Shown piece after piece: positions 1,101 through 21,695 of a stretch of DNA of 33,826 bases (position 1 is its first letter; every line of letters begins with the position of its first letter). The notes beneath the pieces are model-generated. The model saw nothing but the letters and a program-made list of their open reading frames with translations, was not told the DNA's origin and made no database searches. A program made the translations under genes and the position numbers. The stretch is from Oscillospiraceae bacterium (GTDB lineage: Bacteria; Bacillota; Clostridia; Oscillospirales; Oscillospiraceae): the NCBI GenBank assembly GCA_015067935.1, contig SVLL01000017.1:1-33826 (forward strand). The letters run 5' to 3'.

Positions 1101-1225
1101 TGCATCCGCCACCGGCGGCGCAGGGCGGCTGGGCCGGACTCTCACCTCCGGCTCGAGTCCGTCATCCATCTGATAATATTAAATGGGCAATCCCAAGAGG
1201 GATTGCCCATTTAATGGTGCCGGTA
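1101..1225. repeat. Distal copy of a ~125-bp tandem repeat derived from the tRNA-Leu downstream region
   Basis: This copy matches 1307-1430 almost base for base; the obvious difference is one extra base near 1126. Read on the minus strand, it holds in order the last 11 nt of tRNA-Leu (ending CCA), a copy of the terminator hairpin (1178-1215), a CGGACTC/GAGTCCG stem, and a CCGCC-GGT-GGCGG hairpin (1106-1118). Beyond 1225 the tRNA similarity decays, so this is not a second functional tRNA. No gene is supported in 1089-1419; frames that open there are made of the repeat itself. Confidence 0.9.
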
Positions 1226-1306
1226 TCCGGTTTGCGGTGCCCGGCGAATGTCCTTGGCGCGAACGCCTGCGTCCCTCGCCGACCGCTGCACAACCAGCCA
1301 CCCTGC

Positions 1307-1430
1307 TGCATCCGCCACCGGCGGCGCAGGGGGCTGGGCCGGACTCTCACCTCCGGCTCGAGTCCGTCATCCATCTGATAATATTAAATGGGCAATCCCA
1401 AGAGGGATTGCCCATTTAATGGTGCCGGTA
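1307..1430. repeat. Proximal copy of the ~125-bp repeat, overlapping the tRNA-Leu 3' end
   Basis: This is the copy directly joined to the intact tRNA-Leu gene, sharing its last 11 nt (1420-1430). It carries the tRNA terminator hairpin (1383-1420), then on the minus strand a CGGACTC/GAGTCCG stem (1360-1366 / 1340-1346) and the CCGCC-GGT-GGCGG hairpin (1312-1324). The two copies are separated by an 81-nt unique spacer (1226-1306). Confidence 0.9.
1383..1420 (-). terminator. Terminator of tRNA-Leu
   Basis: A perfect 17-bp stem (1383-1399 / 1404-1420) with a 4-nt loop begins at the last base of the tRNA CCA end on the minus strand. The run after it is A/T-rich (ATTATC). An identical hairpin is duplicated at 1178-1215. 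Confidence 0.85.
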
Positions 1431-1506
1431 ACCGGACTCGAACCGGTACGATGTTGCCATCGAGGGATTTTAAGTCCCTTGTGTCTACCGATTTCACCAT
1501 ACCGGC
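1420..1506 (-). tRNA. tRNA-Leu (anticodon TAA)
   Basis: This 87-nt class II tRNA has an encoded CCA. The acceptor GCCGGTA pairs with TACCGGC, with discriminator A. The anticodon stem GGGA/TCCC encloses the loop CTTAAAA, so the anticodon is TAA (reads UUA/UUG). A long variable arm precedes the T-arm with GGTTCGAGTCC. It has its own promoter 12 nt upstream. Confidence 0.97.
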
Positions 1507-6046: not shown

Positions 6047-6123
6047 GCGCCGGTAGCTCAGTTGGATAGAGTGACTGGCTACGAACCAGTAGGTCAGGGG
6101 TTCGAGTCCCTTCCGGCGTACCA
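6047..6123 (+). tRNA. tRNA-Arg (anticodon ACG)
   Basis: This 77-nt tRNA has an encoded CCA. The acceptor GCGCCGG pairs with CCGGCGT (G-U at the first pair), with discriminator A. The anticodon stem ACTGG/CCAGT encloses CTACGAA, giving ACG, which reads CGN codons after A34-to-inosine editing. The T-arm is GGGGTTCGAGTCCCT. Its 3' side is repeated in inverted form 49 nt downstream (6164-6178). Confidence 0.97.
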
Positions 6124-6160
6124 AAAATAAAAGGCACCCTTTTGGGTGCCTTTTATTTTT
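6123..6160 (+). terminator. Terminator of tRNA-Arg
   Basis: A perfect 17-bp stem (6123-6139 / 6144-6160) with a TTTT loop starts at the last base of CCA. The right arm ends in a T-run. Confidence 0.92.
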
Positions 6161-6293
6161 AGTCGGAAGGGACTCGAAAGGGCGTTAAGAAAACTGTCCG
6201 GTGGACAGTTTTTAGCCCGTGGGAGAGTCCATGGGAAAAAACAAATTGTTCAATATAAAGTAAATCGCACCCAACAGGGTGCCTTTTATTTTT
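6161..6293 (+). repeat. Post-tRNA element: inverted tRNA-Arg T-arm copy plus nested hairpin
   Basis: Positions 6164-6178 are the exact reverse complement of tRNA-Arg 6101-6115. A nested fold follows: outer stem GGACTC/GAGTCC (6170-6175 / 6225-6230), then GGGC/GCCC (6180-6183 / 6215-6218), then a 10-bp stem AAAACTGTCC with triloop GGT (6190-6212). The block ends in a second weak terminator (6267-6289), whose right arm plus T-run (6277-6293) repeats 6144-6160 exactly over 17 nt. Together with the operator and promoter at 6365-6413 this accounts for most of the gene-free 6124-6436; no complete gene is supported there. Confidence 0.7.
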
Positions 6294-21500: not shown

Positions 21501-21582
21501 TCAGAAGGGACGATCGCCGTCGGCGGCAACAGTCCACCGGACTGTTGCATTTCGTTTTTCGAATCTCTATCGTCAAACAAAT
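21501..21582 (-). repeat. Post-tRNA element downstream of tRNA-Lys
   Basis: Read on the minus strand after the tRNA-Lys terminator. It contains GAGATTCGAA, which inverts the T-arm's TTCGAATCTC (10 nt), then a 10-bp hairpin GCAACAGTCC with triloop GGT (21526-21548). All this is enclosed by an outer GACGAT/ATCGTC stem (21569-21574 / 21509-21514). The plan and the GGT triloop closed by CC/GG match the element after tRNA-Arg. Confidence 0.6.
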
Positions 21583-21620
21583 AAAAATTAGAAGACACCA
21601 AAAGGTGCCTTCTAATTTTT
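21583..21620 (-). terminator. Terminator of the tRNA-Gln/tRNA-Lys unit
   Basis: A 17-bp stem with one A-C mismatch (21583-21599 / 21604-21620) and a 4-nt loop starts at the tRNA-Lys CCA end. On the minus strand its second arm ends in a T-run. Confidence 0.9.
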
Positions 21621-21695
21621 GGTGACCCGCTGGAGATTCGAACTCCAGACCCATTGCTTAAAAGGCAATTGCTCTGCCAACTGAGCTAGCGGGTC
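21620..21695 (-). tRNA. tRNA-Lys (anticodon TTT)
   Basis: This 76-nt tRNA has an encoded CCA. The acceptor GACCCGC pairs with GCGGGTC, with discriminator A. The anticodon stem ATTGC/GCAAT encloses CTTTTAA, giving TTT. The T-arm is CTGGAGTTCGAATCTCCAG. It lies 4 nt after tRNA-Gln and is cotranscribed with it. Confidence 0.97.

Follow-up and report, generated by a model that had tools for sequence, protein, structure and literature searches.

Palindromic inserts at tRNA 3' ends in Oscillospiraceae: a worn copy behind tRNA-Arg and its relatives

CTX-type phages use the XerC/XerD of their host on folded single-stranded DNA. The attC sites of integrons are palindromes 57-142 nt long, with 9-11 nt at one end pairing with the other end and with AAC and GTT in the R'' and R' boxes (PMC2727003). 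For phages and integrative and conjugative elements (ICEs) that integrate into tRNA genes, a duplicated tRNA 3' half next to a rebuilt tRNA is a hallmark (PMC8371274). Here, we describe a block behind tRNA-Arg(acg) in a stretch of Oscillospiraceae DNA of 33,826 nt (the window), which is contig C25 of a 1.78-Mb genome that is 79% complete. The block is no local oddity but one of many short palindromic sequences, all of one family, that are inserted at the 3' ends of tRNA genes.

The features of the window that concern this family are given below, with R1 denoting a covariance model of the family core.
6047..6123, + strand: tRNA-Arg(acg), the putative docking gene (ARAGORN, Rfam, sequence)
6103-6123, + strand: last 21 nt of tRNA-Arg(acg), C56 to A76 (sequence)
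6124..6160, + strand: intrinsic terminator after tRNA-Arg (sequence; filled versus empty locus)
6164..6178, + strand: inverted T-arm of the own tRNA-Arg, which is the left arm of the palindrome and R''-like (sequence; own-tRNA test)
6180..6218, + strand: inner hairpin block, GGGC/GCCC and a 10-bp stem with CC-GGT-GG apex; the family core
6223..6230, + strand: right arm GAGAGTCC, R'-like (sequence; own-tRNA test)
6267..6293, + strand: second, partial terminator copy, GCACCC/GGGTGC and a T-run (sequence)
21620..21695, - strand: tRNA-Lys(ttt), the second putative docking gene (ARAGORN)
21522..21567, - strand: module 3' of tRNA-Lys, with inverted T-arm at 21558-21567 and hairpin at 21526-21548 (R1, 62.1 bits)
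1420..1506, - strand: tRNA-Leu(taa), the third putative docking gene (ARAGORN)
1300..1419, - strand: tRNA-Leu terminator and module copy 1, with inverted T-arm within 1340-1366 and apex CGCCGCCGGTGGCGG at 1312-1326
1215..1230, - strand: incomplete repeat of the tRNA-Leu 3' half, CCGGATACCGGCACCA, separating the two tandem modules
1106..1214, - strand: module copy 2 at tRNA-Leu (sequence)

A preliminary description of the window had pointed out an inverted copy of the tRNA-Arg T-arm just past the tRNA terminator, and its coordinates were reproduced when we derived them again. The sequence at 6164-6178, CGGAAGGGACTCGAA, matches the reverse complement of tRNA-Arg 6101-6115 in every position, and the terminator (6124..6160) lies between the two. 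The 17-nt direct repeat said to bracket the block is present as well (6144-6160 and 6277-6293). It stems from the partial terminator copy, the repeat being the distal half of the terminator. All elements of the proposed nested fold are found, namely the 10-bp stem with GGT loop (6190-6212), GGGC 6180-6183 with GCCC 6215-6218, and GGACTC 6170-6175 with GAGTCC 6225-6230. As single-stranded DNA, the bottom strand (6160-6235) is predicted to adopt this nested fold (z -4.3), whereas the top strand favours other pairings outside (z -3.75). The inner hairpin block scored 56.9 bits with R1 (E 1.9e-9). The right arm GAGAGTCC is the sole remnant of a second tRNA 3' half, of which the best direct copy matches 11/20, and judging from its sequence the Arg copy is worn.

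Related blocks had also been proposed behind tRNA-Lys and tRNA-Leu, and both are there. The Lys module has lost its second tRNA 3' half (best match 10/20) and likewise looks worn. At tRNA-Leu, 88 nt are exactly duplicated in tandem (1332-1419 and 1127-1214, spacing 205 nt); module copy 1 is of a divergent subtype that the R1 search missed. By eye, we also noticed an extra common tail, GCGGTCGGCGAGGGACG...GACATTCGCCGGGCACCGC or its end, near some units (window 1231-1300, L048, L338, L174 and L175). In the window, the tail is found at the Leu units; it is shared by further genomes and families.

A search of the window's own genome identified relatives of the Arg block at other tRNAs and at the tmRNA. 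A complete unit consists, in order, of a tRNA 3' half (C56-A76), a terminator, the inverted T-arm of its own tRNA and one to three hairpins, after which the second tRNA 3' half follows; the terminator of complete members is thus inside the insert, before the inverted T-arm. Hairpin 1 has a 10-bp stem, often with a CC-GGT-GG apex, and the outer arms read GGRNTCGA / TCGANYCC. Units mostly span about 115-165 bp between the two tRNA halves. Among 28 units with at most two arm mismatches, 27 measured 86-125 nt, a few flanking bases included, and one 198. Most contain no ORF, and they stand singly or in tandem, up to four together.

For model R1, we used 37 of 46 cores, all picked for a CCGGTGG apex and at least six stem pairs; its apex and inner six pairs are therefore conserved by choice, while the four outer pairs are not. 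Eight of the ten pairs of hairpin 1 were found changed on both sides, with 35 two-sided changes in the four outer pairs. We kept 103 of 139 R1 matches, the dropped ones being mainly the named loci L184-L208, largely from the same contigs. Together with 29 matches from genome G078, these yielded 90 unique units in which an arm could be recognised and a tRNA lay no more than 600 nt away. Tandem copies, which are not independent of one another, are among the 90. The 90 units adjoin 28 tRNA isoacceptors and the tmRNA.

A search with R1 found the family in the genus and the order. Units were carried by 86 of 101 genomes of the window's genus and, in a sample of the order, by 31 of 295 genomes in 17 of 148 genera; matches outside the window's genus were weaker and of other subtypes. 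A strict pattern matched 25 stretches in named genomes, 19 of them Oscillospiraceae, two Candidatus Faecousia and four assigned only to Eubacteriales, Clostridiales or Bacillota. All 25 came from metagenome-assembled genomes, many from animal gut by title. We found no description of this palindromic insert family in a literature search outside which most subscription papers and bioRxiv fell.

Other repeats were seen in the course of this survey. L227 (5087, - strand), L118 (5113, + strand), L383, L389, L391 and L399 represent a subtype in which one more hairpin, such as GGCACCAGTGCGCACACTGGTG, stands between AGGGCG and TAAAAA. A GCATCCNGTANGGATG-like hairpin lies 3' of several copies of this subtype, and in L383 and L399 the subtype is, by eye, seemingly nested before the tail of the common one. 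A second repeat family, ...TTACTTATTCACTCTTCACTATTCACT... with an inverted partner, follows tRNA terminators in the 3' flanks of L059 (tRNA-Cys), L366, L353 and L388; in some cases, it is followed by an ORF that we take to encode a four-helix-bundle protein.

To what extent units are tied to tRNA genes can be seen in G078, which is 97% complete. Here, 26 of 29 R1 matches lie within 600 nt 3' of a tRNA on the same strand, where 0.7% are expected, so the blocks are far from equally common away from tRNAs. Of the other three, the first stands close to the beginning of a contig and has no tRNA in front, the second is separated from a tRNA by 1.6 kb, and the third follows a tmRNA called by ARAGORN. 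At least one unit stands behind 18 of the 41 tRNA genes over the cut-off (42 listed).

The inverted arm is specific to the tRNA beside it. Counted from C56, the 90 arms match their own tRNA over a mean run of 9.46 nt versus 5.13 nt for other tRNA types, and the largest mean run in 200 shuffles that re-paired arms with other tRNA types was 5.66. Runs against the own tRNA reached at least 9 nt in 69 of the 90 units and at least 14 in nine, and stayed below 6 in five. The Arg arm has a run of 14 nt from the C56 side, and over the 90 units the match to the own tRNA exceeds what chance would give. Unusual T-arms are mirrored too (GGGAGTCGA in Gly(ccc), GGGATTTGA in Ser(cga) and GGGAATCGA in Glu). 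A direct copy of the 3' half of the own tRNA (at least 18/20) follows 58 of the 90 units, compared to 0.6% of mismatched pairs in 10 shuffles. A good second 3' half is missing in 32, including the Arg and Lys copies of the window.

We determined the boundaries of the duplicated half in 102 tRNAs that have one, a set mostly fetched for carrying units and thus no estimate of frequency. The repeat starts sharply, as 97 of the 102 share zero or one base upstream of C56. Half of the second halves (51/102) are identical over at least 21 nt; 18 of these stop at exactly 21, the tRNA end, and 34 end at 21-24, so intact repeats mostly end at or just past CCA. The remaining 51 have a mismatch before 21 nt. 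Decay of the second half is frequent, which would be expected once tRNA is no longer made from it. In 86 of the 102, it lies 114-167 nt after CCA (searched range 60-400 nt).

To compare filled and empty sites, we sampled 30 loci each of tRNA-Lys and tRNA-Arg(acg) by tRNA similarity, not unit similarity. The site test scored an inverted arm as an exact 8-mer within 120 nt and a Lys second half within 330 nt. Enough flank was available at 27 of 30 loci in either sample. The Lys loci included 14 with an inverted arm and 11 with a second half, while 17 Arg loci had an inverted arm, ten of these with a second half, and ten had neither. All seven R1-negative genomes in the Lys sample were without inverted arm and second half by this test; one of them, G007, has GGGGATTCGAACC farther out from its tRNA-Lys. 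The same tRNA site is filled in some genomes and empty in others.

One pair of genomes was clear: leaving the insert out of G075, its alignment to G060 extends 138 nt past tRNA-Lys, and otherwise 3 nt. Three comparisons gave 101 versus 3 nt (G019 and G081), 35 versus 15 nt (G015 and G069) and, past tRNA-Arg, 59 versus 0 nt (G078 and G101), but are weaker because the shared flank is of a terminator or repeat type that is also present at other tRNAs and may come from a different locus. Among the 21 filled sites (11 at Lys and 10 at Arg), the remaining 17 lack a close counterpart that is empty, and they align over at most 19 nt past the tRNA; in several, the untouched sequence aligns further (for example 25 versus 11, 35 versus -4 and 36 versus -2). 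By sequence comparison, the clear case shows that a unit was inserted and the tRNA restored, and the three weaker ones are in line with it.

A small number of copies flank stretches that carry genes, which we found at four loci. Behind tRNA-Tyr in G008 stand three units that share a terminator; the first interval, of 2.3 kb, holds ORFs of 195, 71 and 199 aa, and the second, of 1.2 kb, an ORF of 159 aa. Two units 2.4 kb apart surround ORFs of 159, 424 and 83 aa at tRNA-Gln in G000, and units 3.85 kb apart surround ORFs of 574 and 322 aa at tRNA-Arg(ccg) in G033. Two units in G019 are 4.5 kb apart on a piece without a tRNA. Six ORFs from the Tyr and Gln arrays (L044 and L107) had no Pfam match above the cut-off, and their best PADLOC match had an E-value of 0.025. 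L211 has an integrase-like ORF of 151 aa downstream of two units, and the piece shows no third unit beyond this ORF. Tandem copies may in part be plain homologous duplications. The 424-aa ORF behind tRNA-Gln (L044:1969-3243), which has no Pfam match, has a C-terminal LDIYIPSKKLAFEYQGLQHF stretch that by eye recalls small nucleases.

Of the two explanations offered in the preliminary description, that of a small element which enters tRNA genes at their ends and brings the tail of the tRNA with it is the one that fits the sharp start of the 3' half, the filled and empty sites, the own-tRNA specificity, the tandem copies and the gene-bearing arrays. We propose that the Arg block is a worn member of a family of palindromic inserts that enter at T-loop C56 and leave the tRNA whole. 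They are likely mobile mini-cassettes, moved by a putative recombinase that is supplied in trans and reads folded DNA, with the tRNA docking them as attI does. We give this reading a probability of roughly 0.55.

Under this proposal, the outer arms of a unit would pair and its hairpins would extrude from one strand, and the left arm with the downstream tRNA half would form a double-stranded-like crossover site. The putative trans-acting recombinase would act on the one folded strand, exchanging strands between T55 and C56. The incoming unit would supply a working 3' half and terminator and push the old ones downstream. Surviving units would be own-tRNA specific, as only those with a 3' half fitting the target would leave a working tRNA. 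Own-tRNA specificity would thus reflect at least selection, because a foreign 3' half would spoil the tRNA.

We searched for the enzyme among tyrosine recombinases. PF00589 gave 71 matches in 13 genomes, from which 51 loci were clustered. One XerD-like and one XerC-like recombinase recurred, while the rest were patchy. The XerC/XerD-like proteins were present in seven of nine carriers searched, the exceptions being genomes of 68% and 82% completeness. They are the sole tyrosine recombinases common to carriers among those clustered. As they are also present in three of four R1-negative genomes, the clustered set held no candidate specific to carriers. The R1-negative G035, 98% complete, had neither of them in the PF00589 search. 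Among the eight proteins of the 71 matches that were scanned for an integron integrase, the best TIGR02249 score was 128.8 versus a cut-off of 265. The third tyrosine recombinase of G000 is presumably a Tn916-type integrase. Two other enzyme classes were rejected as movers of the units, as their presence does not track them: Y1 transposase (PF01797) was found in 5 of 13 genomes and in none of the carriers G078 (29 units), G118, G002, G011 and G012, and reverse transcriptase in 5 of 13, not G078, and untied to units.

Next to this, the cores were compared with one another. The nearest neighbour of a core (n = 69) was at another tRNA of the same genome in 25 cases, at the same tRNA of another genome in 8 and neither in 36; 39 of 500 permutations were at least as high. 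Mean identity was 0.627 for the same genome and another tRNA, 0.638 for another genome and the same tRNA and 0.612 for neither, and the fractions of pairs with at least 0.75 identity were 0.207, 0.118 and 0.065, respectively. In G078, one core is found at Leu, Pro and two Ser tRNAs, which for this genome is suggestive of homogenisation of cores. A more far-reaching and so far tentative idea is that of a 'tRNA integron', in which nearly half of a genome's tRNA genes would be separate docking sites, units would be addressed by T-arm complementarity, and a shared enzyme would serve 28 or more addresses and re-arm cores on jumping. We consider this possible but doubtful.

The inserts could instead be scars or minimal att sites of ordinary tRNA-integrating phages and ICEs. 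TRNA-specific integrases would then each have left an attP and a tRNA 3' half, with the palindrome as the arm-site region and no common system behind them. The duplicated 3' half and the rebuilt tRNA are what such elements leave, and most of the 13 genomes searched contain several tyrosine recombinases. Conversely, a single core with the CC-GGT-GG type of apex, itself partly a search criterion, recurs at 28 isoacceptors and the tmRNA, and the second half keeps its distance from CCA within a range searched far more widely. An inverted T-arm is, to our knowledge, no feature of att sites. In a viral collection, one of three patterns matched, on two contigs and beside a tRNA near the contig end, and the four matches in a phage collection were partial, extending over the terminator part of the query (33-42% of its length). 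We regard scars of unrelated elements as unlikely. A plasmid collection had no match for the one unit searched. The two viral-filed contigs, L412 and L413, have the unit and its tRNA near one end, which is probably the host flank of a provirus. ARAGORN calls a tRNA-Ser in L412; in L413, the 3' part of what resembles a tRNA-Leu was seen by eye.

A poorer fit are REP- or MITE-like palindromes moved by a transposase that makes a 21-nt target-site duplication at tRNA genes. The units are small, mostly without ORFs, palindromic and dispersed, and as every tRNA has 21 nt from C56 to A76, an identical repeat would result from a cut staggered by 21 nt. However, 21 nt is unusually long for a target-site duplication, and G078, with its 29 units, had neither the PF01797 transposase nor the reverse transcriptase that were each found in five of the 13 genomes. 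We consider such an origin improbable.

Whether the stems are maintained as DNA or RNA is reflected in their mismatches. In 107 regions after hairpin 1, the unit stems comprised 1321 Watson-Crick, 19 G-T and 14 A-C pairs. The stem finder favours perfect stems but penalises G-T and A-C equally, so the ratio of these two is the fair measure. As a control, we took 152 unique tRNAs of these loci, whose acceptor and T-stems had 1649 Watson-Crick, 153 G-T and 6 A-C pairs (Fisher p 2e-20 for the G-T share). This shows that unit stems are kept as DNA inverted repeats. Folded as single-stranded DNA, a complete unit is predicted to form a 10-bp outer stem with three hairpins (z -6.7), and a second subtype had a z of -3.5. 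Since the stems are kept as DNA and the units fold as such, the other earlier explanation, an RNA device based on misfolding of read-through products that pair with the T-arm, is very improbable, as is a variant that regulates or traps tRNA precursors: own-tRNA complementarity downstream of the terminator and hairpin covariation would suit it, but the G-U signature is absent, the tRNA 3' half is duplicated, units are present or absent between relatives and stand in tandem, and no Rfam family reached the cut-off on the units scanned (window, L121, L168, L107 and L001). An accidental effect on read-through tRNA precursors may exist.

If the mini-cassette reading is correct, a large group of gut bacteria would have an array of addressed docking sites in its tRNA genes, and most sampled genomes of one genus would carry a family that so far has no name. 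Folded-DNA recombination would reach beyond integrons into Clostridia, part of the repeats at tRNA 3' ends in Clostridia would be explained, and a natural tRNA-addressed integration tool would be at hand.

Among known systems, REP/RAYT elements and MITEs share with the units that they are short dispersed palindromes, but the units are site-specific at tRNA T-loops with a 21-nt direct repeat, and the five carriers named above had no Y1 transposase match. CTX-type phages show how an element with no enzyme of its own can rely on the Xer proteins of its host acting at a DNA hairpin, and XerC/XerD-like proteins are common to the carriers searched; the units, however, target tRNA instead of dif, and a link to Xer would be one of analogy. 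With tRNA-integrating phages, ICEs and genomic islands (PMC8371274), the units share T-loop insertion, a rebuilt tRNA and the 3' half duplicated at the far end, which we observed for 58 of 90. They differ in being short and mostly geneless, with one core across many tRNA species and an inverted T-arm, and typical units are too short for the integrase gene that marks such elements.

In architecture, the units resemble integron cassettes. A palindromic module of similar size lies at the 3' end of the unit, with complementary ends of about 8-10 nt and the junction by the right arm. Units stand head to tail behind one site, most of them empty, and the ORF-bearing stretches at the four loci above may correspond to gene cassettes. 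The size of 27 of the 28 units mentioned above and the 10-bp outer stem of the complete example agree with the palindromic, end-paired attC site (PMC2727003). We do not file the units as an integron, as their ends are tRNA T-loop and T-stem sequence (TCGA..) in place of the AAC/GTT boxes given there, and the proteins scanned here included no integron integrase. The units also differ from integron cassettes in that their docking site would be the tRNA gene and that they bring a tRNA 3' half and a terminator with them.
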